Shown here piece by piece: positions 6,214 through 26,054 of a stretch of 64,000 bases of DNA (position 1 is its first letter; each line of letters begins with the position of its first letter). Under the pieces are notes generated by a model. That model was not told the DNA's origin and ran no database searches. It worked only from the letters and a program-made list of their open reading frames with translations. This stretch comes from Magnetococcales bacterium (lineage in GTDB: Bacteria; Pseudomonadota; Magnetococcia; Magnetococcales; UBA8363), in contig PEAK01000001.1 of assembly GCA_002753515.1 (NCBI GenBank), positions 1 through 64,000 of the forward strand, given 5' to 3'. The position numbers were made by a program, and so were the translations under genes.

Positions 6214-6543
6214 GGTGTTCTCCTCGAAACGAAAATGACGATGCCAGGCTTGCGACCCATGCTGCTTGTTCAGCAATATTTGCGCCGAAGTTTAATGTAT
6301 TGTAAACTATAAAAAAAAAGATTATCCTCTTTTGACGGTGGGAAAAAAACTCCCTGCGCCGGAAAAATTTGCCTCCCAACTCCCTGGAGTTGACGGGCTG
6401 ATGGGGTGATTTTACGACTTGGAAGGTTATCGCAATCTAGTGACTCAACCGACCTGATGTAACGGGTAAGGTCGCGCCAACTTGACTAAGAGCTGTGTCC
6501 AGTCTTGACGGGGAGGCTGTTGTTGGGAAAAAGGAGAACCGAG
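6214..6543. other. Divergent intergenic region, no gene seen
   Basis: A 330-bp space between the minus-strand gene at 5875-6213 and the toxin-antitoxin operon. It is AT-rich near 6290-6320 (TTTAATGTATTGTAAACTAT followed by an A-run) and must carry the promoters of both units. I see no coding frame with a ribosome site and no strong consensus promoter. Confidence 0.5.
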
Positions 6544-6795
6544 ATGACGACCGTCACGATGGAAATTCCTGGAGATATGCTGTCGGCTCTCCGAAGGTCC
6601 CCTGATGAATTCATTCAGGAATTGCGGTTGGCGGCGGCCATCCAGTGGTACGCCCAGGGGTGGATTGCCCAGTCCAAGGCGGCTGAGTTCGCTTCCGTGA
6701 GTCGCGCCGAATTCCTTGACGAGTTGTTTCGGAGGCGGATTCTCGCCGTGCAGGTTACAGAGGAAGAATTAAGAGAGGAAGTCTTTGGTGGATGA
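6544..6795 (+). CDS. UPF0175 family antitoxin-like protein
   Basis: Predicted antitoxin of a type II toxin-antitoxin pair. The ATG at 6544 has AAGGAGAA seven bases upstream and is preferred over a longer in-frame start at 6505. The 83-residue product shows the UPF0175 pattern: an N-terminal beta-strand (MTTVTMEIPGDML), then RLAAAIQWYAQGWIAQSKAA, then a helix-turn-helix-like AAEFASVSRAEFLDELFRR and an acidic tail. The family regularly precedes DUF3368 PIN-like toxins, and here the two genes overlap. By analogy it should neutralise the toxin and repress the operon. Confidence 0.85.
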   Translation: MTTVTMEIPGDMLSALRRSPDEFIQELRLAAAIQWYAQGWIAQSKAAEFASVSRAEFLDELFRRRILAVQVTEEELREEVFGG

Positions 6796-7270
6796 CCGCT
6801 TGGTGGTGGACGCCTCCCCGCTCATCCTCCTGGGGCGTGTCGAGCATCTTTGGCTGTTGGAGCAGATGTCACGCCAGATCGTGGTTCCGCAATCCGTGTG
6901 TTTGGAAATCGCCGCCGGGCAGCGATGGGATGGTTCCTGCGTAAAAACACTGGCATGGACGGAGCGTCATCGAACTGGGGATGTTCCTCTGCCAGCCAGT
7001 GTGGAGGGATGGGGTTTGGGGGCTGGTGAGTCGCAGGTCGTTGCGACGGCACTCCTTCACGGTGGAAAAGCCTTGCTGGATGATCGGATGGGACGCCGGT
7101 GCGCCAAGGCGCAAGGATTGTCGGTGATCGGTACCTTGGGCGTCGTGCTGCTGGCGAAACGACTCCATCTGATTCCATCAGCGCTGACGTTGCTGGAGGC
7201 CTTGCGCCACCAGGGACTGTTTTTGGACAACCGACTGCTCGAAGGAATGCTGGTTGAGCTTGGAGAGTAG
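6785..7270 (+). CDS. DUF3368 family PIN-like toxin
   Basis: Predicted ribonuclease toxin. The N-terminus LVVDASPLILLGRVEHLWLL carries the first PIN-like Asp, with further conserved acids at GAGESQVVATAL and ALLDDRMGRRCA, as in DUF3368. At about 161 residues it is the normal family length. The start is a TTG at 6785 or the adjacent GTG at 6788; both overlap the antitoxin's 3' end, which implies translational coupling. The target RNA is unknown. All the acidic positions I expect are present, so the gene looks intact. Confidence 0.85.
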   Translation: MVDDRLVVDASPLILLGRVEHLWLLEQMSRQIVVPQSVCLEIAAGQRWDGSCVKTLAWTERHRTGDVPLPASVEGWGLGAGESQVVATALLHGGKALLDDRMGRRCAKAQGLSVIGTLGVVLLAKRLHLIPSALTLLEALRHQGLFLDNRLLEGMLVELGE

Positions 7271-7310: not shown

Positions 7311-7538
7311 TTGCCTGGAGAAGCGGACACTTGCCGAAAATTCGTGGTTCCCCTGCTCCAAAAAGCAGGTTGGGACGATGCACCCCACGGCGAGGCTCAA
7401 TTCCGCCTGTCGGATGTCTTGGAGGTGCCGCTACTGGATGCGTTCGGCAACGTGATCGAGATTTCCCAAAGGTTCGGTGGGGCGCTTCAATTGAAAGAGG
7501 CCATCACCGAGTTGGCTCAATTGCTTTATGCAGCATAA
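7311..7538 (+). pseudogene. Remnant of a type I restriction endonuclease subunit (hsdR-like)
   Basis: A 75-codon frame with a TTG start behind GAGGTGG. The first ~30 residues (PGEADTCRKFVVPLLQKAGW) match the start of EcoEI-type HsdR proteins, which are normally about 800-1000 residues. The sequence then switches to LSDVLEVPLLDAFGNVIEIS and ends in AITELAQLLYAA, which may be the C-terminal end of the same or a neighbouring gene after a large internal deletion. No helicase or nuclease motif remains, and no hsdM or hsdS is in the window. The N-terminal match is recognition by eye; the origin of the second half is inference. Confidence 0.55.
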
Positions 7539-7550
7539 TGAGGGACGCAA

Positions 7551-8452
7551 TATGTTTGCCGAATTTGAGGAGAAAGAGTACGAGAACTATTTCAATCAAG
7601 CATTGGGAAGCCGCTTCAGAATTAATTGGGCTCCAGGGCAAGTGGTTTGGATTTGATAGCGCGTTTTTTATTGATGACCCAATGATTCTTGATTATTTTC
7701 TTCACAAATATCACTGGCACTGGCATCATCACTTGCTCAAGCATCGCCATATCCCTGGAGTAGTTGTAAATCCTGAACTTCTGGATGAACTGCTCCACGT
7801 GATAGACAAAATTCCACCTGCCAGATTCCGTTTTAATCTGTTCTTGCAATACAAGAGGCCGGAGTACGTGAAATCACCTCTCGGTGGCGAGTATGACGCA
7901 TGGGGGATACCGTACTTTCGGTATTATCCGTCCAGTGAGCAGCAAGAAATGCTTGAACGGCTTGAAATTGCTGCATCTTCAAACGCTGTCGTTTCTTATG
8001 CCAGTCCTGCTTTTCACCTTCGTGAGGAACTTTTCAATACGCATATGGAGCGACTGATTGTTGAGAAGTCCAACTATGTTGGTCCTTCTCGACTGAAAGG
8101 ACATCACTGTTATACCTACGTCGAGCCAGGGGCCTCCGGGAAGGCCTTTTCAGATCCTGAGGACATCGAAGATGAGGGGTTCGACAGAAAATTGTCCCGG
8201 GCTAGGGAGTCCAACCAGGGACAGAATGAGGGGGTCCGTGTCCTTGTAAAACAAGCAGGGAGAATGGTCTCTCAAGCGCTCCAGGCTTCCAATATTGATA
8301 CGAGAAACGCATTCAGAGAGGCACACCATCGCATAATGGGACGAATCATGGAATCGGTGGAGTCAAGCGGAGATATGGAAACATATTCAAGTTTCGTCAA
8401 CGTTCAAACGTTTTGTTTCCTAAATAAAACAGCATGGTCTTTGGTTGGATAA
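7551..8452 (+). pseudogene. Frameshifted gene of unknown family, possible PD-(D/E)XK-like nuclease
   Basis: The ATG at 7551 sits behind GAGGGA and encodes MFAEFEEKEYENYFNQALG and then RFRINWAPGQVV before a TGA near 7653. The next frame continues with no break as FGFDSAFFIDD to 8452, giving about 300 residues in all. The frame that runs on from upstream through 7538 encodes an implausible basic stretch in this part, so a small deletion near 7640-7650 best explains the switch. FDSAFF followed by FLQYKRPEY resembles the Asp and Q-x-K of some restriction-like nucleases, and an acidic first helix also fits. A His-rich HWHWHHHLLKH lies between. The neighbours are a restriction remnant and a toxin-antitoxin pair. 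Family not identified. A sequencing error or programmed shift cannot be excluded. Confidence 0.6.
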
Positions 8453-11438: not shown

Positions 11439-14400
11439 ATGAGCAATTCGATGATCAAAACGCAGAAAAATCGTTCCGCGCTTGCAAGTGTGGCGTGGCA
11501 AGATGCCATGATGATGGCTTTGGAGCCACGGGTGTTGTTCGACGGTGCCCTGGCGACAACAGCCAAGGATCTCCTGCATGAACAGGGATTTGATGACATC
11601 GTTGCCAATAAGGATGTCATTCGGGATGCCATCGATAAAACCTGGCATCCCGTCTTGGACCAACTCGCCAATCCTCATCATTCCTTGATGATCGTCGATA
11701 CAACGGTCACGGGTTGGCGGCAATTGGTGGCAGCGGTCGCCCCGGGGGTCGAGGTGGTGCTGCTGGACAAAGGGGGGGATGGTGTCGCCCGGGTCTCGGA
11801 ATTGTTGGCGGGTCGCAGCCAGATTCAATCCTTGTATCTCGTATCCCACGGCCGGGCGGGTGACATTATTTTGGGTGATGCGCACCTGACCCTGGATACC
11901 CTGGAATCACATGCGGCTACCCTTTCCTCGTGGGGGTCGGCGTTGGCCCCGGGGGGGAGCATACTGGTCTATGGCTGTGACGTTGGGCAGGGGTCTCAGG
12001 GTGAAGCCTTTGTGCAGGCGTTATCCCGGGTCACGGGAGCCGCCGTTGCCGCTTCATCGGATGCTACCGGTGCCGCGCAGTTGGGGGGTGACTGGGATTT
12101 AGAAGTCCATCAGGGCAATGTCGATACCACAACCCCCTTTGTCCCCACGGTGTTGCAATCCTTCGATGGGTTGCTGGCGACGCCGATCAATATGTTACCC
12201 ACATTTTATTCGGCTTCTTCTTGGCCACCCGTGGCCGTCCCTGCGGTCGTGGATCATGGGATTACCCTGAATGGTGGTTGGATTAACATTAAAGACAACC
12301 AACAAGCGCTGACCCCCATCAATACGACGCAAGGGACCATCAGCGTACGTTTTATGATTGATCAAAATGCACATCCCCTTAATACAGTTGGTTTTATATT
12401 TGACAATGATGTCAGTGGGCATACTACCGATTTAATCGATCTTCATGTTGAATACAAAACGATAACCTTTGGACCGAACGTTGGACAGAACGCTTGGTTG
12501 CTCTATGGTGGGTTATACAACTATAATGCTTCTTCTCTTTTATATAGTAATGCGGGTGTTTCGACTCCTGTCATTGTCAAGGCGGGTCAATGGCATCAGG
12601 CAGCACTGACTTGGAGGTCTGATGGGAGTGGTGACATCTATTTTGATGGCAATTGGTTGGTTCATTACAATGCCGGCAATATTACATTTACCAACGCTGT
12701 CAATAACAAGGTTGCTATTGGTACCATTTCTGATTTAGGCACCTTTATCTTTCCTGGTTCTATTGCTGAGGTGCGCATTTGGAATACCAGTTGGGCCTCT
12801 GGAATAGCGGGATTGACCGGGGGAGAACGCACCGATTTGGCTACCGCATCCTTGACCGGGGCGGAAGCCGGATTGACCGCGTATTACCCCCTGAATGATG
12901 GTGTCAGCAACAGCGCCAGCACCGTGGCCACCGATACGAAAGGCGGTGTTACCGCCACACTGCAACCCGTTGGGGGGCCGCAGTGGATCACCCATCCCCA
13001 GGAAGATAATACGGTGACGGTTTCTTTGGGGGGCGGCGACGCTAACGGAACCGATACTATTGCAGAAGCCGATATAACCAGCGTTCCTAACCCTGCAACC
13101 GTCGGATCTTTGTACCTTTCTACGGATGTGACACACAGCACTCCTTTAGTGACTGGCAGTGTTGTCGTTACGTCGGTTGCCAACCCTTTGCGAGAAGTTG
13201 TTTTTGTCCCGGTAGCCGATTATAACGGCCTCGTTTCATGGACCTATAATGTGAAGGACACGTCAGGCATCACTTCTGCTACGGCGGCGACCGTTTCGTT
13301 CACCATGGATGCGGTGAACGATGCCCCGGTCGTGACAGCAGCCGCGCCATCCATGACAACGATCACCGAAGATCAAACCACTAATGCGGGGCAAACGGTG
13401 GCCTCGTTTTTGGGGACATCGATTACGGACGTGGATACGGGAGCCGTGCAGGGGATCGCCATCACCACCTACACCGGCAATGGCACTTGGCAATACAATA
13501 CCGGCGGTGGTTGGACCAATGTCGGGGTGGTGTCGGCTACTTCGGCATTGTTGCTCAAATCAACCGATTCGATTCGTTATGTACCCGATGCCAACAATGG
13601 TGAAACAGCGACCTTGAGCTATCGCGCCTGGGATCAAACCAGTGGTTCGACCGGGAGCAAGGTGAACGTGTCGACCAATGGCGGTACAACCGCATTCAGC
13701 TCAGGGAGCGATACCGCCTCCCTGGTGGTCAGCAGTGCCAACGATGCGCCAGTTCTGACCGCCATTGCCCCCGCTTTGACAACGATCACCGAAGATCAAA
13801 CCACCAATGCGGGGCAAACGGTGGCCTCGTTTTTGGGTGCTTCCATAACCGACGTGGATACAGGGGCTGTCAAGGGGATTGCCATCACCACCTACACCGG
13901 CAATGGCACTTGGCAATACAATACCGGCGGTGGTTGGACCAATGTCGGGGTGGTGTCCGCTTCATCGGCATTGTTGCTCAAATCGACCGACTCGATTCGT
14001 TATGTACCCGATGCCAATAATGGTGAAACAGCGACCTTGAGCTATCGCGCCTGGGATCAAACCAGTGGCTCGACCGGGAGCAAGGTGGACGTGTCGACCA
14101 ATGGCGGTACAACCGCATTCAGCTCAGGAAGCGATACCGCCTCCCTGGTGGTCAGCAGTGCCAACGATGCGCCAGTTCTGACCGCCATTGCCCCCGCTTT
14201 GACAACGATCACCGAAGATCAAACCACCAATGCGGGTCAAACGGTGGCCTCATTTTTGGGGGCATCGATTACGGACGTGGATACGGGAGCCGTGCAGGGG
14301 ATCGCCATCACCACCTACACCGGCAATGGTACCTGGCAATACAATACCGGCGGTGGTTGGACCAATGTCGGGGTGGTATCCGCAACTTCGGCATTGTTGC

Positions 14401-17400
14401 TCAAATCGACCGATTCGATTCGTTATGTACCCGATGCCAATAATGGTGAAACAGCGACCTTGAGCTATCGCGCCTGGGATCAAACCAGTGGCTCGACGGG
14501 AACCAAGGTGGATGTGTCGGCCAATGGGGGGACAACCGCATTCAGCTCAGGGAGCGATACCGCCTCCCTGGTGGTCAGCAGTGCCAACGATGCCCCGGTA
14601 GTGACGGCCATTGCCCCCGCTTTGACAACGATTACCGAAAAAAATACCACCAATACCGGACAAACCATTGCTTCCTTTCTGGGAACCTCCGTGACGGATG
14701 TGGACACGGGGGCTAGCAAAGGGATTGCCATTACCGCCCTGAACACCGGCTTTGGTACTTGGCAGTACAATACCGGCGGTGCTTGGACCAATATCGGGGC
14801 GGTTTCCGGTACATCGGCACTGTTGTTACGTTCCACCGACTCCATTCGCTACATTCCCGATGGATTGCATGGGGAAACCGTGGGATTCACGTATCAAGCC
14901 TGGGATCAAACCAGCGGTGCGGCAGGGACCAAGGTCAACGCCTCGGTTACGGGTGGGACGAGCGCTTTCAGTACCGGTAGCGATACTGCCACGCTAACGG
15001 TTTCGGAGGTGATCGATGCACCGCAACTGACGATTGGTACCGGCAACGTATTAAATTTTGATGGAAATAATGATACGATTACCAACGCCACCTTCAACTT
15101 TCCAACCAATGCTTTCACCATCGAAATGTGGTGGAAGCCTGCGGTCAATCTGACCAGTGCCAACTCGCAGCAAGATATGTATTACTGCGCTTCAGGTGGC
15201 AGCCGGCCCTATATCGCCTTCAATAAAATCGGTAATGGCGAAATTGGCATTTTTACCAAAACTGGCGGCAGTAATAATAGCAATGCCGTGACGACAACAC
15301 ACGCGTGGACCGGTGGCCAGTGGTACCATTTGGCATTTACTTACGATGGTACCAATGTTCGTGTTTACGTGAATGGGCAACTGCAAACCACGGCTCCCGT
15401 TGCCAATCCGGGTCCCATCACCGCCGGGAATGGCTTTTACATGGGTACCAGTAAGACATTGGGCTCGGACATGAAGGGGGCTTTGGCCGATGTACAGATT
15501 TGGAGTGTCACGCAAAGTCAGGCCACCATCTTCAATAACATGAGCCGCCAGTTGACCGGTGCCGAGGCGGGTTTGGTGGGATACTGGCCCATGGATGAAG
15601 GGGCTGGCATGACCATTTTTGACCATGCCGCAACACCTCATAATGGAACGATCACCCCCCCGCAAGGGCCTACCTGGAGTACGGGTGTCGATGCCGTGTA
15701 CGGCATGGAGGAACAGGATATCGCCATTCCCGATCTCAGCCTGACCGATGTTGATTCCCTGGGTAACTCGACGATCAACCTGACGGTTGTCAGCGGCATC
15801 CTGACGGTGGATACCAGTGTTGTCGGGGGGGTGGGGGCTGCAGGCGTAGCGGGTAATGGCACCGCCAATGTCACTCTGACCGGAACCCTGGCGCAGTTGA
15901 ATGCCACGTTGGCTGGGACCAACGCCTTGGTCTATCGGGGTAATGTCAACTTCTATGGCAATGACACCCTGACCATTAACGTGACCGATAACACCGGGGG
16001 TACGGCTGCGGGTACCATCGCGATCACGGTCAATAATGTTTACGACCCTTTAGGGGTGACAACGGGGGGTACGTTGGTTTTCACCGAGGGGGATGCGGCT
16101 TCCAAACCGTGTGCGACAGTGGCCATTGTCAATGATGACGGCAACAATCTGACCAGTGCCAAGGTATGGTTTACCGGCGGTTATGTTTCGGGACAGGATG
16201 TTTTAAGTTTTGTCAACGCGGGGGCCATCACCGGCAGTTGGAACGCGGGTACCGGGATTTTATCCCTGACGGGTGCCGATACCACCGCCAATTATCAGGC
16301 TGCGTTGCGGAGCGTCCTGTACAACAATAGCGGCGGCAACAATCCAACGGCTGGATCCCGAACCCTCTCCTGGACCGTCACCAGCGCCCTGGGGACCAGC
16401 CCGACCAGTACCTCGACGGTGACGGTGGTCCCGGTCAATGACCAGCCGGTCATGACCGCCGCTGCGGCGACGATATCCTATCAGGAAAAGGATCCGTCCA
16501 CGCTGATCGATGCAATGTTCACGGTGGCGGATCCCGACAATACAACGTTGCAAAGCGCCAAAGCGGTCATTTCCAATCAGTTCGTTGCGGGAGAGGACCG
16601 ATTGGTTTTTGTCAATCAGTCCGGTATTTCCGGCAGTTGGGATGGGGTGAACGGGATTCTAACCTTGTCGGGTCCGGCGACATTGGCCAATTATCAAACG
16701 GCAATCCGTTCGGTTCGCTATATCAACGATAACCTGCAAAATCCACAAGCAGTTACCAAAACGGTGCAAGTCACCGTTAATGATGGCGCGTTGGATAGCA
16801 CGGCCGTGCAGGACATGATCGCGGTTACAGCGGTCAATGATGCCCCGGGGCTCATCCTTCCAGGTGCCGTGACGGTCAATCAGGACCAAAGTTCCGCTTT
16901 GGCTGGCATTACGGTGACGGATGTGGACGTGGGGACCGGGACCATGCAACTGGCCTTGTCGGTCAACCATGGTACCGTCACCTTGGGGTCAACTACCGGA
17001 TTGAGCATCGTTTCCGGTGCCAACGGCAGTGCCACCATGACCGTTACCGGCACCATGACCGCCATCAACAGCGCCCTGAGCGGTTTGAGTTATCAATCTT
17101 TGTTGCATTACGCCGGCGCTGACAGCCTGACCATCGTTGCCAACGATTTGGGGGGGAGTGGCAGCGGTGGTGCCAAAACGACCACCAGCTCGTTGGGAAT
17201 TACCGTCAATGCGGTCCAACAACCCCCCGTGGCCGGGGACGATGCCTTGATGACCCTTCAGGATCATGCGCTGGTCATTACCATCACCAGCGATCTGTTG
17301 ACCAATGATGTCGATACCGACGGTGATCCGTTAATGATGACGGCGTTTACCAACCCCGCCAATGGAACGTTGGTGGACAATGGTAATGGAACGCTGACGT

Positions 17401-20400
17401 ACACCCCGAATAATGGTTATTTTGGCAGCGATTCGTTTGTTTACACCGTCAACGATGGCCATGGCAACACCGATCAGGGGGTGGTCACGGTGGTTGTCAA
17501 ACCCCTGCACAGCTTGCAAGCCGTTGATGACGCTGGGGCTACCTTGGAGGAGGTCCCGGTAACCGTATCCGTCCTGGGCAATGATCGGGATCCCGATTAT
17601 CTGCCGAACGGCATCAATCCGGCGTTGCATGTCATTGGTTTCACCGCCCCGGGGAATGGCCAGGTAACCCATAACGGTTCCGGCCAGTTCACGTACACCC
17701 CCAATGTTGATTTTTTCGGTGTGGATGCTTTTACCTACACCCTGAATGCCGGCGACAATCGGATCGCTGTGGGAACGGTCACGATCACGGTGTCAGACGT
17801 CAATGATCCTCCGGTAATGACCATCAATACCGGTGCATCGGTGGTTGAGGGGGCTACGGTTACCTTGGCGAACACGTCCTTGCAGGTGACCGATATCGAG
17901 CAACCGGCCACCCAGCTCACCCTGACCCTGGTTACCATCCCGGTACATGGCACCCTGAAACTGAATGGTGTTGCCTTGGGATTGGGGCAAACCTGGACCC
18001 AGGACGATATCAATAACAATCGTTTGGTGTACTTGCATGACGGTTCCGAAACATTGGCGGACAGCTTCAGCTTTACCGGCAGTGACGGGGTGGGCGGGGC
18101 GCTTTTGCAAAATGATTTCCATCTGACGGTCATTCCCACACCCGATAACCCGGTCCTGGTCAAAGGGGCGGTGGCAGTGGCAGAGGGGGGACAGGTGACC
18201 CTTGGCACGGCAATCCTGGCGGCAACCGATCCCGATTCCCCCGCAAGCAGCTTGACCTATACGGTGGATACCTTGCCGGTGCATGGAGGTTTGCTTTTAA
18301 ACGGGGTCGCCTTGGGGGTGGGCGGGCAGTTCACCCAGGCGGATGTGGATGCTGGTAATCTGGCGTATCATCACGATGGCAGCAATACCGTGGGCGATAA
18401 TTTCAGCTTTCACATTGATGATGGCCAGGGAGGTTCCTTGGCGACAACCACCCTGCCAATCACCATCGCCCTGGTCAATGCCCCTCCGGCTTGGACCGTG
18501 CCGGGAGCGCAAACGGTTGACCAGGATCTCGATTTGGATATGACCGGCATCGTCCTGAACGATTCCGATGCCGGGGGCGGCTTGATGCAGGTGACGGCAT
18601 CGGTCTCCCACGGGACGATCCGCTTGTTGTCCACCTCGGGCCTGACCGTCACCAGCGGCAGCAATGGAGCCGCCACCTGGACGGTTTCCGGTACGCTCTC
18701 CGATCTAACCACCGCTTTGGCCCACGTCGTTTACCACAGTCAAGCCAATTACCACGGTGCTGATCAATTAACCTTGGATGCTGATGACGGTGGCAATACC
18801 GGTTCTGGCGGGGCCAAGGTGACGGTCACGACCATCGCCATCACCGTGCAGGCGGTCAATGATTTCCCCAATGCGGGGATCGACGCGTTTACCACCGTGC
18901 AGGATACCCCGGTGACCCTGTCCTTGGCCAATGACCTGATGATTAACGATACCGACCCGGGTGGCAGCATTCTTTCCTTCATGAGTTTTGCCCAACCATC
19001 CCATGGCAGCGTCGCCCAGGTCGGCGCCACGCTGGTGTATACTCCGCAAGCCCTGTACACCGGCACCGACTCCTTCACCTATACCATCGTCAATGCTTAT
19101 GGCAATACGGGTACCGCGACCGTCAGTCTGGTCGTTTCCCCTATCTATAATTTTCTGACCCCCGGCAACGATACGGTTACAGTGCTGGAAAACAGTGCCG
19201 TAACCACGAGCAATCTGCTGGCCAATGATCTCGATCCCAATTATCTGCCCGATGGGGTCAATCCCGCGTTTACGATTACCGGTTTCACACCAACGGTGTC
19301 CGGTACCCTGACCTATCTGGGCGCCGGTCGGTTCACCTACGTTCCCAACGCCGGTTTTTACGGTACGGACAGCTTCACCTACACCGAAAGTGTTGGTGAT
19401 CAACGGGTCGCAACCGCCGATGTGACCATTACCGTGCAACCGGTCAATCATTCACCCGTGTTTGCTGTCAATACCGGCTTGAGTTTGAACGAAGGGGGGC
19501 AGGTCACTGTTACCGACCTGATGCTTCAGGCACAGGATACGGAACAAACCGCAGCGCAGGTGCATTTCATCCTGGCAAACACCCCGGCTCACGGTTCGCT
19601 GGCTCTCAATGGCACCGTTTTGACAACCGGAGGGGGATTTACCCAGGATGATATCGACAATCATCGCGTTGTCTATTCCCATGATGGCAGCGAAACCACC
19701 AGCGATCCATTCGTGGTAACCGTGACCGATGGGGTCGGTGGCTTCTTGAATAATCAAACGGTTACGGTTACGGTCACCCCGGTCAATGATCTGCCTCAGC
19801 TAACCGTCAACACTGGCCTGACCGTGTTGGAAGGGGGGAGTGGGACCTTGTCAGCGGCCATGCTGACAACTGTTGATGCCGAATCGGCAGCGGGTGCCTT
19901 GGTTTACACGCTGACAAGCATCCCCGGTCACGGTTCTTTGCGCTTGAATGGAACGGCGCTCACCGTGGGGCAAACTTTCACCCAGGCCGATGTCAATGCC
20001 GCCCTGGTGACCTATCTGCATGATGGCACCAATACCCTGACGGATGGATTTCATTTTACGGTTCAGGATGTTCAGGGTGGGAGCTATTCCGATACCCCTT
20101 TCAATATCTCCGTGACGCAGGTGAATGACCCGCTGATCGTCAATGCTGGCGCAGCGCTGAACTATACCGAAGGGGATGCCGCTCTGTTCGCCAATCCCGG
20201 TTTGACGGTGGTCGATGCGGATGGCACCAACCTGTTACACGCCCAGGTGGCGATCGTTGCCGGTTTCAAGCCGGGGGAAGATGTGTTGCACGTTACCAAT
20301 ACCGCATCAATCTTTGGTTCTTTCAATGCCACAACGGGGGTGCTCTCCCTGACCGGTGTGGCCAGCTTGGCCGACTATCAACTGGCGCTGCAAAGCGTGA

Positions 20401-23400
20401 CCTATAGCAATGCGGCGGGTCACAATCCCACCGCCGGGGTCCGTACCCTGGAATGGAGCGGTACCGATACCCTGGAGACGAGTCCGGTCAGTCAGTCCAC
20501 AATCACCGTGATACCCGTTGACGATGCCCCGGTTGTGGTAGCGGGAACAACACTTTCATACCTGGAAAAGGATGCCGCGACCCCGGTTTCTCCCTCCATC
20601 ACGGTTACAGACGCGGACAGCTCGTTATTGCAAAGCGCCACGGTGACGATTGCCAACCAGCATGTCGCCGGCGAAGATCGGTTGGTGTATACCAATCAAG
20701 GGGGTATTTCCGGCAGTTGGGATGCTACCAGTGGTACACTCACCTTATCGGGTCCCGCAACGGTTGCCGGTTATCAAACGGCGCTCCGTTCGGTAAGCTT
20801 TATCAATGACAATGTGAGTAACCCGCAACCATCCACACGCACGGTATGGTTCCGTGTCCATGATGGTCAGCTCGCCAGCGCCGTGGCGTCAGCCAATGTA
20901 GTGGTAACCGCCGTCAACGATGCCCCGGTGATCACCACACCCGTCAACAGGACCATGAACGAAGACGGCGTTTTAATCGTCAGTGGCGTAACCGTTGCCG
21001 ACGTGGATGCAGCGAATGGCACGGTGCAATTCGCCCTGGGGGTGAATCACGGTACCATCACCTTGGGGGCGACAACGGGAGTGACGTTCGTTTCCGGCAC
21101 CGATGCCAGCAGCACCATGACCGTCACAGGGACTGTGGCCGCCATCAACAATGCCTTGAATGGCATGACCTATCAGCCAACCCAATATTATTCCGGGAAC
21201 GATACCCTGACCCTGGTTGCCAATGATTTGGGCCTTTCTGGCAACGGTGGGGCCTTGACCCATGCCGCTGCTGTAGGCATTACCATCAATCCCGTTCAAC
21301 ATGCCCCGACCGCCAATGTGGACACGATTCTGGCAGCGCAAAATGTCCCGAAGATGATCACGGTTGCCAATGATTTATTGGCCAATGATTTCGATGTGGA
21401 TGGGGATACCCTGACGCTGGCCTCTTTCACCCAGCCCACTCATGGTTCCCTGATCGACAACGGCGATGGTACCCTGACCTACCAGGCCAATTACAATTAT
21501 TTCGGTCTCGACTCAATGACCTATACCCTTGCCGATGGTCATGGGAACTCCGGTCAGGCGGTGGTCACCGTGGTCGTCAACCCGGTTTTTGCCAACTTGC
21601 AGGCGAATGATGACAACGTGGTGACCCCCGAGGAAGTACCGGTCAGTTTCAATGTACTGACCAATGATCGCGATCCCGGCTATTTCCCCAATGGTATCAA
21701 TCCGCAACTCGCGGTCATCGGTTTCACGGATCCCGCCCACGGTCAGGTGGTCGCTTCCGGTGCTGGCCAGTTTCAATACACCCCGGACACCCTTTATTTC
21801 GGTACCGACACCCTGACCTACACCGTGAGTGTGGGCGATAATCGCGTCGCCACCGGCACCGTGACCATTACGGTGACCCCGGTCAACCATTCCCCTTCAC
21901 TAGCGGTATTGACCGGGGCGGGGGTGTTGGAAGGGGGGGCGGTTACCATTTCCTCTGCCATGTTGCAGGTGACCGATCCCGAACAGTCGGCCTCTCAGGT
22001 CACTTTGTCACTGGTCCATACGCCCAATCATGGCCTGCTCACATTGAATGGCGTGCAACTCGTTTCAGGTCAGACGCTAACCCAGCAGGATATTCAACAA
22101 AACAAGTTGGTTTATCACCATGATGATACAAAAATCCCCACCGATTCGTTCAGCTTCACCGCTTCCGATGGCGTCGGTGGCAGCATGTTGGAAACCAATT
22201 TTGCCCTGAACATAACCCCGGTCAATCACAACCCCGTGCTGGTCACAGGGGTGCTGACCCTGGATGAGGGTGGCCAAGCGACGCTGGGCAGTGGCCAGTT
22301 GGCGGCAACGGATCTGGAACAAGGGGCTGCGGCCTTGAATTATGCCCTGGATCAAGTGCCGATTCATGGGCAATTGATGATGAATGGTGCTGCGTTGGGT
22401 GTCGGAGGGGGGTTTACCCAGGCCGATATTAATGCAGGGCATGTGGCATATCGCCACGATGGCGGCAATACCGTCCACGATTTGTTGCGTTTCCATGTAA
22501 CGGATGGCCAAGGGGGATCGGTGGCGACCACAACCTTGGCCATTAACGTAAATCCCTCCAACAATGCCCCGGTGTGGAGTCTTCCCAACCCGGTGACACT
22601 CAGCGAAAATCAAAATGTGACAATCACCGGGGTCACATTGGCCGATGCGGACCTGTTCGGCAATCCCATCAAGGTCACATCATCCGTGTCGCACGGCATC
22701 CTGACACTGCCGGCAACGCTCGGTTTGACAACGGTTTCCGGGGCCAATGGCAGTGCATCCTGGACGTTTTCCGGCTCTTTGGCCCAGGTCAACGCAGCCT
22801 TGAGTCAGATCACTTATCAGGCTGCAACTTGGTACCATGGTACCGATCAGTTGGTATTGGTGGCCAACGATGGGGGTGCAACCGGCCTCGGTGGCGCTAA
22901 AGAAACCGTTGGTGGCGTGGCGATAGCGGTGCAACCAGTGGAGACCGCGCCCATCGCGGGAATGGATTCCTTCACCACCCAGCAAAATACGCAAAAATCG
23001 ATGAGCGTTGTTTCCGATCTGCTGGCCAATGATCATGATCCGGCGGGACTTTCGTTCTCCTTGCAAAATTTTTCTCAACCGACCCATGGTTTCCTGACCC
23101 TTGCCGGGGCCACCCTGACCTATACCCCCGAAATCAATTACAAGGGGATCGACCAGTTCCATTACACCATCGTCAATGCCAACGGTAACCAAGCCACCAC
23201 CTCGGTATCAATTGTAGTGACCCCGGTACAGGGTCATCTGCTCCCCGGCGATGACCAAGTGGATGTCCTGGAGAACGGATCGGTAACAACTCACAATCTA
23301 CTGGCCAACGATTTGGACCCTGCTTACCTCCCCGATGGTCACAATCCGGATTTGGCCATCATCGGCACCAGTGCCGCCACACACGGTTCTGTGACTTGGC

Positions 23401-26054
23401 TGGGTGATGGCCGCTTCACCTACGTGCCCAATGCCGGATTCCATGGTGTCGATCATTTTTCCTATTCGCTGAGCGTTGGTGATCAAAGGGTGGATACGGC
23501 CCAGGTGGTGGTGACCGTCCACCCGGTCAACAACAATCCCACCCTTGCGGTCAATACCGGTCTGACGCTGGACGAAGGGGGCCAGGTGGTTGTTTCCAAC
23601 CGCATGCTGCAAGCCAAAGATTTGGATCAACCAACGTCCCAGGTTCATTTCATCCTGGCTTCGGTACCGGCACATGGGCTGTTGACTTTGAATGGCTCGC
23701 CGTTAGCTGCGGGAGGCTTTTTCAGTCAGGACGATATCGACAATCACCGTGTCGTTTATACCCATGATAATGGTCCATCCCTGAGCGATCCCTTTACGGT
23801 GACCCTCAGCGATGGGGCTGGTGGATTGTTGTCCAATCAAATGATTTCCGTATCGATCACCCCTGTGAACCAACCGCTGCATCTGGTGGTTGATACACCG
23901 ATCACCGTTACCCCTGTTGTCCAAGCCCCGACTTTGCTATCCCCCTCACGATTGGTTACCCGGGAAAATGTCGCCATCCTCGTTCCGGGCCTGTCAGTAG
24001 CCGACCCGGATGTCGGTTCCAAAACGATTCGCGTGCGCTTGGCGGTGGGGCATGGGCTGCTCAGCGTTCCCGAATTGCCCGGGTTGCAGTTTCAGGATGG
24101 CCGCAATCAAACCCCTTCCACCACCCTGGTGGGCACGGTCACAACCATCAACCAAGCCCTGGCAGGTTTGCAATATCAAGGGTTTGAAAACTTTTCCGGC
24201 AGCGATACCCTCAACGTGTTGGTGGGTGATCAAGGACATGCGGGTCAGTTGGCGGAGTTGACCACGGGGATTTCCATTCCCATTGAAGTCACCTTCGTGT
24301 CTCAGCCCCCATTGCCCGGAGTGGATGCGATTGTTTCACCTCCCAACCACCCTTTTGTGGTCAACCAACCCGTCACGATCGATATTCGGACCCTCCTGGG
24401 TAACGATTACAACGTGAACAACCCGAGATCCGGTTTGTCCATTCACTCCTTTACCCAACCCCAGTTCGGGACATTGGTGGATCGTGGCAATGACCAATGG
24501 GTCTATGTACCCAATGATCAGTATCAGGGGTATGACCGATTCACCTATACGGTGAATGATTCTTCGGGCAAGTTTCCCTTTACGTCGGTGGTGATCATCA
24601 ATCCCATCGAACATGCCCTGCAAGCGGGTAATGATACCCTGGTACTATACGAGAATGAGCCGGCGCGTACAGCGAACGTGTTGCTGAACGACAGTGATCC
24701 TTCAGCACTTGGCGGTATTCAATCTCAATTGACCATTATTGCCTTTACCCAAGGTCAGCATGGCACGGTGGCTTATACGGGTGAGAACATATTTCTTTAT
24801 GTGCCGGATCCGGACTATTATGGTTCCGACCAATTCACCTACACGTTGAATGCGGGTGATCGACGCATTGATGTGGCAACGGTGGCGGTGACCATAAAAC
24901 CGGCGAACGATCAGCCGCAAATTGCGATCAATGCGGGCCTGGGCTTGATTCAGGGCGGGACGGCGACCATTGGCAAGGAAAATCTGCGTGTGACGGATAA
25001 GGACAATGTCGACAGGGAATTGATTTATTCCCTGGATACGATCCCGGGCCAGGGGGAGCTCGTGCTATCGGGTACGGTGTTGGCCAAGGGGGGGCATTTC
25101 ACCCAGGAAGATATCGCCCAGGGTCGTTTGCTCTACCGTAATACCAATGGCGCTTCCAGCTCGGATGGTTTTCGCTTCCATGTCGATGACAGTGCCGGAG
25201 GATTTGTTGTAACCACCGATTTCATCATTCGCCTCGAACCCAAACCGATTGCGAAAAGTGTTCCCCCCGTGGTGGAGATCGTTCCCCCCGTATCGTTGCA
25301 ATCGCCCGATCTTGGCCGGTTTTTTAAACCATCTTCAACGGTTTCCTCCCAGTTTTTGCCACTGGAGATAGCGGAAAAGCCATGGTCACAGGAACTCGGC
25401 CAACGTCCAGTGGAAGTTGTCTCATCACCGGCACCCAGTGGCAGTGTCGCACTCTTGGGCATGGATGTGGAAGTCACCAATACGCCTATTTTAACCGTTA
25501 TCCGTTCGCACGAGCGTACCGTTGCCCTAGAAGCGTCTACCAATCCGATTTTGACAGCGGTCATGAATGCTTCCCCCGGGGTGGAGGAAGGGGGCGTTGT
25601 AACACCGGTGCTGAATGCTGTTAAGCGTGGTGGCCATAATTTTGCCCCCGGGGCTTCCATCACCCCCGTCATGGCAGCGGTTGTCGCCAGTCGTCCCGAG
25701 GGAACACCAACACAATTGGGGAGCCCTTTTCCTGATCGCGGGCCGGAAAAGGGCTTTTTCGCCCCTGGTCTGTCGTTTATGCCGTGGTTTCCAGAAAAAA
25801 ATGTCGAACCCGGTCCCGCCAATATCAATGAAGGGGGAAACACTGAAAACAGTCCGATAAGATCCAGGCCGGCGGGGGATGATTATTTGGTGCCCGTGGA
25901 GCAAGGGGAGTGGGAAAAAGAACACCCCGTGCCCAACCCCGTACCAAAAGCGATTCCACGGCAGCAAGCGCGGCTGGAATTATCGGAACAGTTGCATCAA
26001 ATGGCGCATCGTCGTGAACAAAAAGCGGAGCAATTCAGGCGGGCTTTCATCTAA
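11439..26054 (+). CDS. Giant DUF4347 repeat surface protein (4871 aa)
   Basis: Predicted exported adhesin or surface-layer-like protein. The N-terminus has no Sec signal but carries ALEPRVLFDGA (about 27-37), typical of large DUF4347 proteins, then the DUF4347 domain (about 58-245, SLYLVSHG and LVYGCDVGQG). A LamG/concanavalin-like domain (about 255-515) follows. Next come four 141-residue cadherin-like repeats (629-1193), a second LamG-like domain (about 1200-1417), and a long array of cadherin-like, Big_9-like and CSPG/NG2-like domains to about 4600. The C-terminal 270 residues are Pro-rich and end in a charged coiled segment. I see no RTX nonapeptides, no anchor and no transporter gene nearby, so the export route is unclear; type I secretion is usual for the class. 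The ATG at 11439 has only a weak ribosome site. Confidence 0.9.
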   Translation: MSNSMIKTQKNRSALASVAWQDAMMMALEPRVLFDGALATTAKDLLHEQGFDDIVANKDVIRDAIDKTWHPVLDQLANPHHSLMIVDTTVTGWRQLVAAVAPGVEVVLLDKGGDGVARVSELLAGRSQIQSLYLVSHGRAGDIILGDAHLTLDTLESHAATLSSWGSALAPGGSILVYGCDVGQGSQGEAFVQALSRVTGAAVAASSDATGAAQLGGDWDLEVHQGNVDTTTPFVPTVLQSFDGLLATPINMLPTFYSASSWPPVAVPAVVDHGITLNGGWINIKDNQQALTPINTTQGTISVRFMIDQNAHPLNTVGFIFDNDVSGHTTDLIDLHVEYKTITFGPNVGQNAWLLYGGLYNYNASSLLYSNAGVSTPVIVKAGQWHQAALTWRSDGSGDIYFDGNWLVHYNAGNITFTNAVNNKVAIGTISDLGTFIFPGSIAEVRIWNTSWASGIAGLTGGERTDLATASLTGAEAGLTAYYPLNDGVSNSASTVATDTKGGVTATLQPVGGPQWITHPQEDNTVTVSLGGGDANGTDTIAEADITSVPNPATVGSLYLSTDVTHSTPLVTGSVVVTSVANPLREVVFVPVADYNGLVSWTYNVKDTSGITSATAATVSFTMDAVNDAPVVTAAAPSMTTITEDQTTNAGQTVASFLGTSITDVDTGAVQGIAITTYTGNGTWQYNTGGGWTNVGVVSATSALLLKSTDSIRYVPDANNGETATLSYRAWDQTSGSTGSKVNVSTNGGTTAFSSGSDTASLVVSSANDAPVLTAIAPALTTITEDQTTNAGQTVASFLGASITDVDTGAVKGIAITTYTGNGTWQYNTGGGWTNVGVVSASSALLLKSTDSIRYVPDANNGETATLSYRAWDQTSGSTGSKVDVSTNGGTTAFSSGSDTASLVVSSANDAPVLTAIAPALTTITEDQTTNAGQTVASFLGASITDVDTGAVQGIAITTYTGNGTWQYNTGGGWTNVGVVSATSALLLKSTDSIRYVPDANNGETATLSYRAWDQTSGSTGTKVDVSANGGTTAFSSGSDTASLVVSSANDAPVVTAIAPALTTITEKNTTNTGQTIASFLGTSVTDVDTGASKGIAITALNTGFGTWQYNTGGAWTNIGAVSGTSALLLRSTDSIRYIPDGLHGETVGFTYQAWDQTSGAAGTKVNASVTGGTSAFSTGSDTATLTVSEVIDAPQLTIGTGNVLNFDGNNDTITNATFNFPTNAFTIEMWWKPAVNLTSANSQQDMYYCASGGSRPYIAFNKIGNGEIGIFTKTGGSNNSNAVTTTHAWTGGQWYHLAFTYDGTNVRVYVNGQLQTTAPVANPGPITAGNGFYMGTSKTLGSDMKGALADVQIWSVTQSQATIFNNMSRQLTGAEAGLVGYWPMDEGAGMTIFDHAATPHNGTITPPQGPTWSTGVDAVYGMEEQDIAIPDLSLTDVDSLGNSTINLTVVSGILTVDTSVVGGVGAAGVAGNGTANVTLTGTLAQLNATLAGTNALVYRGNVNFYGNDTLTINVTDNTGGTAAGTIAITVNNVYDPLGVTTGGTLVFTEGDAASKPCATVAIVNDDGNNLTSAKVWFTGGYVSGQDVLSFVNAGAITGSWNAGTGILSLTGADTTANYQAALRSVLYNNSGGNNPTAGSRTLSWTVTSALGTSPTSTSTVTVVPVNDQPVMTAAAATISYQEKDPSTLIDAMFTVADPDNTTLQSAKAVISNQFVAGEDRLVFVNQSGISGSWDGVNGILTLSGPATLANYQTAIRSVRYINDNLQNPQAVTKTVQVTVNDGALDSTAVQDMIAVTAVNDAPGLILPGAVTVNQDQSSALAGITVTDVDVGTGTMQLALSVNHGTVTLGSTTGLSIVSGANGSATMTVTGTMTAINSALSGLSYQSLLHYAGADSLTIVANDLGGSGSGGAKTTTSSLGITVNAVQQPPVAGDDALMTLQDHALVITITSDLLTNDVDTDGDPLMMTAFTNPANGTLVDNGNGTLTYTPNNGYFGSDSFVYTVNDGHGNTDQGVVTVVVKPLHSLQAVDDAGATLEEVPVTVSVLGNDRDPDYLPNGINPALHVIGFTAPGNGQVTHNGSGQFTYTPNVDFFGVDAFTYTLNAGDNRIAVGTVTITVSDVNDPPVMTINTGASVVEGATVTLANTSLQVTDIEQPATQLTLTLVTIPVHGTLKLNGVALGLGQTWTQDDINNNRLVYLHDGSETLADSFSFTGSDGVGGALLQNDFHLTVIPTPDNPVLVKGAVAVAEGGQVTLGTAILAATDPDSPASSLTYTVDTLPVHGGLLLNGVALGVGGQFTQADVDAGNLAYHHDGSNTVGDNFSFHIDDGQGGSLATTTLPITIALVNAPPAWTVPGAQTVDQDLDLDMTGIVLNDSDAGGGLMQVTASVSHGTIRLLSTSGLTVTSGSNGAATWTVSGTLSDLTTALAHVVYHSQANYHGADQLTLDADDGGNTGSGGAKVTVTTIAITVQAVNDFPNAGIDAFTTVQDTPVTLSLANDLMINDTDPGGSILSFMSFAQPSHGSVAQVGATLVYTPQALYTGTDSFTYTIVNAYGNTGTATVSLVVSPIYNFLTPGNDTVTVLENSAVTTSNLLANDLDPNYLPDGVNPAFTITGFTPTVSGTLTYLGAGRFTYVPNAGFYGTDSFTYTESVGDQRVATADVTITVQPVNHSPVFAVNTGLSLNEGGQVTVTDLMLQAQDTEQTAAQVHFILANTPAHGSLALNGTVLTTGGGFTQDDIDNHRVVYSHDGSETTSDPFVVTVTDGVGGFLNNQTVTVTVTPVNDLPQLTVNTGLTVLEGGSGTLSAAMLTTVDAESAAGALVYTLTSIPGHGSLRLNGTALTVGQTFTQADVNAALVTYLHDGTNTLTDGFHFTVQDVQGGSYSDTPFNISVTQVNDPLIVNAGAALNYTEGDAALFANPGLTVVDADGTNLLHAQVAIVAGFKPGEDVLHVTNTASIFGSFNATTGVLSLTGVASLADYQLALQSVTYSNAAGHNPTAGVRTLEWSGTDTLETSPVSQSTITVIPVDDAPVVVAGTTLSYLEKDAATPVSPSITVTDADSSLLQSATVTIANQHVAGEDRLVYTNQGGISGSWDATSGTLTLSGPATVAGYQTALRSVSFINDNVSNPQPSTRTVWFRVHDGQLASAVASANVVVTAVNDAPVITTPVNRTMNEDGVLIVSGVTVADVDAANGTVQFALGVNHGTITLGATTGVTFVSGTDASSTMTVTGTVAAINNALNGMTYQPTQYYSGNDTLTLVANDLGLSGNGGALTHAAAVGITINPVQHAPTANVDTILAAQNVPKMITVANDLLANDFDVDGDTLTLASFTQPTHGSLIDNGDGTLTYQANYNYFGLDSMTYTLADGHGNSGQAVVTVVVNPVFANLQANDDNVVTPEEVPVSFNVLTNDRDPGYFPNGINPQLAVIGFTDPAHGQVVASGAGQFQYTPDTLYFGTDTLTYTVSVGDNRVATGTVTITVTPVNHSPSLAVLTGAGVLEGGAVTISSAMLQVTDPEQSASQVTLSLVHTPNHGLLTLNGVQLVSGQTLTQQDIQQNKLVYHHDDTKIPTDSFSFTASDGVGGSMLETNFALNITPVNHNPVLVTGVLTLDEGGQATLGSGQLAATDLEQGAAALNYALDQVPIHGQLMMNGAALGVGGGFTQADINAGHVAYRHDGGNTVHDLLRFHVTDGQGGSVATTTLAINVNPSNNAPVWSLPNPVTLSENQNVTITGVTLADADLFGNPIKVTSSVSHGILTLPATLGLTTVSGANGSASWTFSGSLAQVNAALSQITYQAATWYHGTDQLVLVANDGGATGLGGAKETVGGVAIAVQPVETAPIAGMDSFTTQQNTQKSMSVVSDLLANDHDPAGLSFSLQNFSQPTHGFLTLAGATLTYTPEINYKGIDQFHYTIVNANGNQATTSVSIVVTPVQGHLLPGDDQVDVLENGSVTTHNLLANDLDPAYLPDGHNPDLAIIGTSAATHGSVTWLGDGRFTYVPNAGFHGVDHFSYSLSVGDQRVDTAQVVVTVHPVNNNPTLAVNTGLTLDEGGQVVVSNRMLQAKDLDQPTSQVHFILASVPAHGLLTLNGSPLAAGGFFSQDDIDNHRVVYTHDNGPSLSDPFTVTLSDGAGGLLSNQMISVSITPVNQPLHLVVDTPITVTPVVQAPTLLSPSRLVTRENVAILVPGLSVADPDVGSKTIRVRLAVGHGLLSVPELPGLQFQDGRNQTPSTTLVGTVTTINQALAGLQYQGFENFSGSDTLNVLVGDQGHAGQLAELTTGISIPIEVTFVSQPPLPGVDAIVSPPNHPFVVNQPVTIDIRTLLGNDYNVNNPRSGLSIHSFTQPQFGTLVDRGNDQWVYVPNDQYQGYDRFTYTVNDSSGKFPFTSVVIINPIEHALQAGNDTLVLYENEPARTANVLLNDSDPSALGGIQSQLTIIAFTQGQHGTVAYTGENIFLYVPDPDYYGSDQFTYTLNAGDRRIDVATVAVTIKPANDQPQIAINAGLGLIQGGTATIGKENLRVTDKDNVDRELIYSLDTIPGQGELVLSGTVLAKGGHFTQEDIAQGRLLYRNTNGASSSDGFRFHVDDSAGGFVVTTDFIIRLEPKPIAKSVPPVVEIVPPVSLQSPDLGRFFKPSSTVSSQFLPLEIAEKPWSQELGQRPVEVVSSPAPSGSVALLGMDVEVTNTPILTVIRSHERTVALEASTNPILTAVMNASPGVEEGGVVTPVLNAVKRGGHNFAPGASITPVMAAVVASRPEGTPTQLGSPFPDRGPEKGFFAPGLSFMPWFPEKNVEPGPANINEGGNTENSPIRSRPAGDDYLVPVEQGEWEKEHPVPNPVPKAIPRQQARLELSEQLHQMAHRREQKAEQFRRAFI
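13324..15018 (+). repeat. Four tandem 423-bp repeats inside the giant gene
   Basis: Units begin at about 13324, 13747, 14170 and 14593, exactly 423 bp (141 codons) apart, each opening with a variant of APVLTAIAPALTTITEDQTT. The first three are nearly identical in DNA, while the fourth has diverged (EKNTTNTGQT). Near-identity at silent positions indicates recent duplication or ongoing gene conversion. Confidence 0.9.
16840..25240 (+). repeat. Higher-order repeat: about 1.64-kb five-domain cassette in the giant gene
   Basis: A cassette of five domains recurs: an 'xHGT' cadherin-like domain, a Big_9-like domain (TYTPNxxYxGxDSFxYT), a second Big_9-like domain with (N/L)DxDPxYLP(N/D)G, then two CSPG-like domains with (L/V)xxGG..FTQxDI. 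Copies start near 16850, 18490, 20930, 22570 and 23925. The last two lack one CSPG domain. Copies one plus two and three plus four are each preceded or separated by a pair of EGD/EKD domains, giving a super-period of about 4.08 kb (16050 versus 20130). Confidence 0.75.

Follow-up and report, generated by a model that had tools for sequence, protein, structure and literature searches.

What is encoded at positions 7552-8452 (+ strand) of the window, the 64,000-nucleotide stretch of a Magnetococcales genome analyzed here, where a protein-like sequence changes reading frame at about 7645? The first-pass annotation had proposed a frameshifted gene resembling restriction-like nucleases and, if intact copies were to exist beside restriction systems, perhaps an undescribed defence nuclease. 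Translation confirms the switch. Frame 1 opens at ATG 7552, behind a Shine-Dalgarno-like GAGGGA (7540-7545, + strand, as read directly in the sequence), and reads MFAEFEEKEYENYFNQALGSRFRINWAPGQV until a stop at 7654; its N-terminal part (7552-7644, + strand) corresponds to a first helix with a conserved Glu, as found by translation and by-eye alignment with the N-termini of intact homologues. An alternative start in frame 2 (ATG 7538) would give a product lacking this first conserved helix. The remainder lies in frame 2 (7646-8452, + strand), which runs from FGFDSAFF through FLQYKRPEY to a stop ending at 8452, as supported by translation and homology. A plasmid protein of Vibrio coralliilyticus, MKSRYEEKTYESYFNNELDKKSKIYFPPGQVLEGNLGFDASSF...ILFQYKRPE, spans both halves in a single frame, from which we conclude that the two frames form one gene. 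With the frame-2 part as the sole tblastn query, the match to this homologue has E = 4e-12.

The gene belongs to a family of about 27 homologous loci, spread over at least five bacterial phyla and also present on one haloarchaeal plasmid. A single-protein scan of the genome contigs returned no relatives; reaching them took two- and three-sequence alignments as the search query. Profile and pattern searches added relatives from Pseudovibrio, Rhodobacterales, Gallionellaceae, Acidobacteria, Balneatrix, Chryseobacterium, Aquimarina, Balneolaceae, and Brevibacterium, and members also sit on plasmids of Rhizobiaceae, Phyllobacterium, and Roseobacteraceae. A second, divergent subfamily was found in one order of the window's phylum. 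The family is rare: of 399 genomes sampled from the phylum four carry it, including that of the window, and of 346 genomes of one order five do. Profile comparison links the two subfamilies (probability 99, E = 4e-18), and they have the pattern E...E...G[FY]D...QxK in common. The window's subfamily (clade 1) carries an insert of about 60 residues between D and QYK, whereas the other (clade 2) has short spacing with the canonical D-(12)-QxK distance. Four further candidates from same-genus and same-phylum genomes (L004-L007) gave only weak matches (E 0.002-0.009) and were set aside, as was the weak match L003, whose frame overlaps an apparent 575-aa gene on the opposite strand.

As far as sequence models can tell, the family is so far unnamed and appears to be undescribed. 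None of the Pfam, NCBIfam, PADLOC, and PHROGs models recognizes any member scanned. For the window protein, PADLOC-DB 2023 gave no model match at E<=1, and a Pfam scan of 14 members gave nothing above noise, Mrr_cat and Mrr_N included. A sequence search of the PDB found no known family, members showed no sequence-level match to known nuclease families, and no link to the family was found in sequenced phage records.

What the intact proteins do is best approached through their conserved residues, counted over 24 family sequences and numbered after the member beside EcoRII (L042). Invariant are G42, D44, Q57, K59, R88, Q99, L103, and Y115; E7 and E36 are nearly so. In the window, the predicted catalytic Asp (7655-7657, + strand) closes the GFD motif at 7649-7657, and the predicted catalytic Q and Lys, invariant in the family, lie in the QYK motif at 7847-7855 (+ strand); these D and QYK codons fall in the columns of the invariant D, Q, and K. 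The family thus has the conserved active-site set of the PD-(D/E)XK superfamily, to which helix 1 contributes an acidic residue, beta-2 the D, and beta-3 the (D/E/Q)xK. The His-rich HWHWHHHLLKH, which had also caught the eye at first, proved irrelevant: the HWHWHHH stretch (7712-7732, + strand) lies within the clade-1 insert, occurs in the window copy alone, and was rejected as a functional feature.

The AF2 model of a clade-1 member (pLDDT 80.6) is good outside residues 22-72, the disordered region that contains the D, and it had no match among PDB structures. The model of a clade-2 member (L065) is weak, with a mean pLDDT of 61, and its elements run as in PD-(D/E)XK proteins: helix, (beta), beta carrying D, beta carrying QxK, helix, beta. 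In this low-confidence model D starts one strand and QxK ends the next, followed by a helix and a strand. Going by the match descriptions, PD-(D/E)XK-fold proteins make up about 46 of its 50 best Foldseek matches in the PDB, although none lies below E = 0.001 or is individually significant (best 2ost, E = 0.2, with all at E>=0.2; the Holliday junction resolvase Hjc, 4tkd, at probability 0.80). Among the top viral structure matches are nucleases, Holliday junction resolvases, and VRR-Nuc proteins. Because the motif set, the topology of the AF2 model, and the fold-search results all fit it, we take PD-(D/E)XK as the most likely fold, one that these models support rather than prove. The suspected resemblance to restriction-like nucleases therefore stands on its E..E..D..QxK residues, topology, and fold profile, not on any single structural match.

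From this fold and its residues we infer nuclease activity for the intact members. They could instead be catalytically inert PD-(D/E)XK proteins acting as DNA-binding sensors or inhibitors, for example as regulators of a neighboring restriction enzyme, which we regard as unlikely. Inert versions of this fold usually lose their catalytic residues, whereas here D, Q, and K never vary and both Glu hardly do over two very divergent subfamilies. A sensor role would fit the replacement of ExK by QxK and the fact that active nucleases (EcoRII, Mrr, and HmaA with its NOV_C domain) are often encoded alongside. It also has a precedent in BREX helicases, for which PMC12839542 describes inactive PD-(D/E)XK sensor domains. 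PD-QxK, however, is a known catalytic form, active in both Mrr and MspJI (PMC12707154).

The second strand of the argument is where the genes are found. Defence genes enclose or adjoin the family gene at 9 of the roughly 27 loci, comprising type I restriction-modification (RM), Hma, type IIG plus Mrr, Dcm/Vsr/EcoRII, AbiH, SIR2-like, PDC-S06, and Gabija-like types, and several of the gene pairs overlap or directly adjoin. After an hsdR-hsdM-hsdS set (L102), the family gene follows 85 bases later and an AAA_15/AAA_21 ATPase gene 9 bases after that. In an Hma operon (L045) it lies between HmaA, with which it has a 4-base overlap and whose product carries a NOV_C domain, and HmaB, followed by HmaC. 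Elsewhere it has a type IIG enzyme upstream and an overlapping Mrr-like gene downstream (L046), or adjoins genes for a Dcm-like methylase, Vsr, and EcoRII (EcoRII-C; L042). AbiH begins 4 bases downstream in L014, with Dcm-like, Vsr, McrB-like ATPase, and LlaJI genes beyond, and a SIR2-like gene 6 bases downstream in L021. A PDC-S06/AAA_13 ATPase gene lies downstream in L017 and L023; in L017 it is followed at some distance by a piece of HsdS. On a Rhizobium plasmid (L070, 8422-16275) a reverse transcriptase gene stands on one side and UvrD plus OLD genes (Gabija-like) on the other. By this repeated operon-like linkage in divergent genomes the family is defence-associated, and intact copies do exist beside restriction systems, namely in L102, L046, L042, and L014.

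A count of PADLOC matches at E<=1e-20 points the same way, with 178 families in 139 neighbor ORFs versus 37 in 125 control ORFs, the control being a small and crude one (ORFs taken elsewhere in 12 of the genomes) that allows pooled totals only to be compared. No RM families occur among the 25 control PADLOC families listed. The partners differ from locus to locus and none is universal. Nor is the family general to Hma systems: one Hma operon (L045) contains a member. This linkage was judged by a whole-genome scan, the HmaC loci L051-L064 stopping short of the HmaA-HmaB gap. In the phylum sample, the genome of the window is the sole Hma carrier that also has a member, and its HmaC gene (L059, G000:C132:21354-24134) sits on a different contig, unlinked to the family gene. 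Two further neighbors may be recorded separately: the gene at L101:8683-10065, which encodes a Tle1-like phospholipase domain (PF09994), adjoins a family member, and plasmid L072 has a DUF2235 gene about 7 kb away from its member.

About two-thirds of the loci have no recognized defence neighbor. Lone members are found on plasmids among transposases, on a prophage contig, or in an integron cassette; the V. coralliilyticus copy (plasmid CP020455.1, L002) is an integron-type cassette holding this one gene, flanked by repeats that end at 11691 and 12748. One could thus see the family as mobile-element cargo serving maintenance or competition, with its defence neighbors reflecting shared islands only. 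The many solitary members and the two-thirds of loci without defence genes speak for such a cargo, yet overlapping or closely spaced genes in coherent operons (HmaA-family gene-HmaB, hsdS-family gene-ATPase, family gene-Mrr, and family gene-AbiH) exceed what shared location would give, and we consider the idea improbable.

Returning to the window copy, how was it broken? Between PxQx and G[FY]D, 10 of 10 homologues measured have 15 bases, whereas the window has 4 (7645-7648, + strand, between PGQV and GFD); 11 bases are therefore missing, and with them the codon for a Glu that hardly varies across the family. A loss of this size speaks against a one-base read error as the cause and, with the conserved codon gone, argues against a programmed frameshift, so that the window copy, judged on its sequence, is a real and inactivated pseudogene. 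The damage looks recent, because the subfamily-invariant residues 3' of the break are all retained in frame 2. Inactivation is not unique to the window, since the copy on a Phyllobacterium plasmid (L067:12001-12830) is likewise split, into two annotated CDS.

The surroundings show similar decay. A 75-aa remnant of a type I HsdR (7311-7538, + strand), with an N-terminal piece joined to a C-terminal piece, ends 13 bases 5' of the family gene's start codon. Its identification rests on Pfam matches (EcoEI_R_C at 7e-4 and HSDR_N at 0.12), on relatives with longer hsdR frames, and on a BLASTP comparison with the HsdR of L102, with which it shares the EcoEI type. The simplest account is a dead family copy beside a dead type I restriction gene. 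That the frame switch arose in assembly or sequencing, with the window copy in fact intact, is very unlikely, for although the genome is a 134-contig assembly without a second copy or read data as a check, the loss is one of 11 bases with a conserved codon rather than of one base, and the adjoining hsdR is also a deletion remnant. Directly upstream of this remnant, a UPF0175 gene and an overlapping DUF3368/PIN-like gene (6505-7270) are likely a toxin-antitoxin pair. Further along the window, a single open frame of 4871 aa (11439-26054) resembles a giant adhesin: many of its segments are repeated, and it bears the motif LEPRVLFDGA in its N-terminal part.

Taken together, the window gene is probably a recently inactivated copy from an undescribed PD-(D/E)XK family, whose intact members would serve as accessory or stand-alone anti-phage DNA-cutting effectors. 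The idea of an undescribed defence nuclease thus seems largely right for the family, while the window copy itself is dead. Intact, the window protein would have had about 285 residues. Members are predicted to be metal-dependent nucleases whose active site combines two Glu, one of them in the first helix, with an Asp that opens beta-2 and a QxK that closes beta-3, arranged as in Hjc-like and Mrr-like (PD-QxK) enzymes. Their most likely role would be that of accessory or stand-alone DNA cutters in anti-phage defence. Some are carried singly, on plasmids, a prophage contig, or an integron cassette, and they often lie inside RM or other defence operons. There, recognition, self-protection, or the trigger may come from the partner, be it a type I or IIG RM enzyme, Hma, AbiH, a SIR2-like protein, or an ATPase of the OLD or AAA_13 type. 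It is conceivable, and we propose it tentatively, that the family supplies an effector that can be swapped between unrelated sensor or restriction systems (type I RM, Hma, AbiH, SIR2-like, and OLD/AAA_13 ATPases) and is also carried as a lone integron cassette.

If confirmed, this would mean that current defence-finding libraries miss a nuclease family that spans at least five phyla of bacteria and extends to a haloarchaeal plasmid. Its adjacency to many systems would suit testing how one nuclease serves several defence systems, and intact members are at hand in compact operons (after hsdS, between HmaA and HmaB, and 4 bases before AbiH).

Among known enzymes, the archaeal Holliday junction resolvase Hjc is one of the best fold-search neighbors of the clade-2 model, and Hjc and RecU have the order of elements predicted for the family: the helix-1 Glu, the beta-2 Asp, and an (E/Q)xK at beta-3. 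The family differs from them in having QxK instead of ExK, about twice the length with an extra C-terminal region, no sequence match, and no recombination partner seen. Mrr-type enzymes (Mrr_cat, PD-QxK) resemble it in their QxK catalytic motif and restriction context, and one member (L046) even adjoins an Mrr-like gene; the 14 members scanned, in contrast, lack Mrr_cat and Mrr_N matches and hence a recognized winged-helix DNA-reading domain. Auxiliary PD-(D/E)XK nucleases of BREX and BREX-related systems are described in general terms in PMC12839542, and to the extent of that general description the member among the Hma core genes (L045) is comparable to the auxiliaries of BREX and DUF499-centred Hma systems. 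Unlike those auxiliaries, the family is also found with type I, type IIG, Dcm/Vsr, AbiH, and SIR2-like genes, as well as alone.
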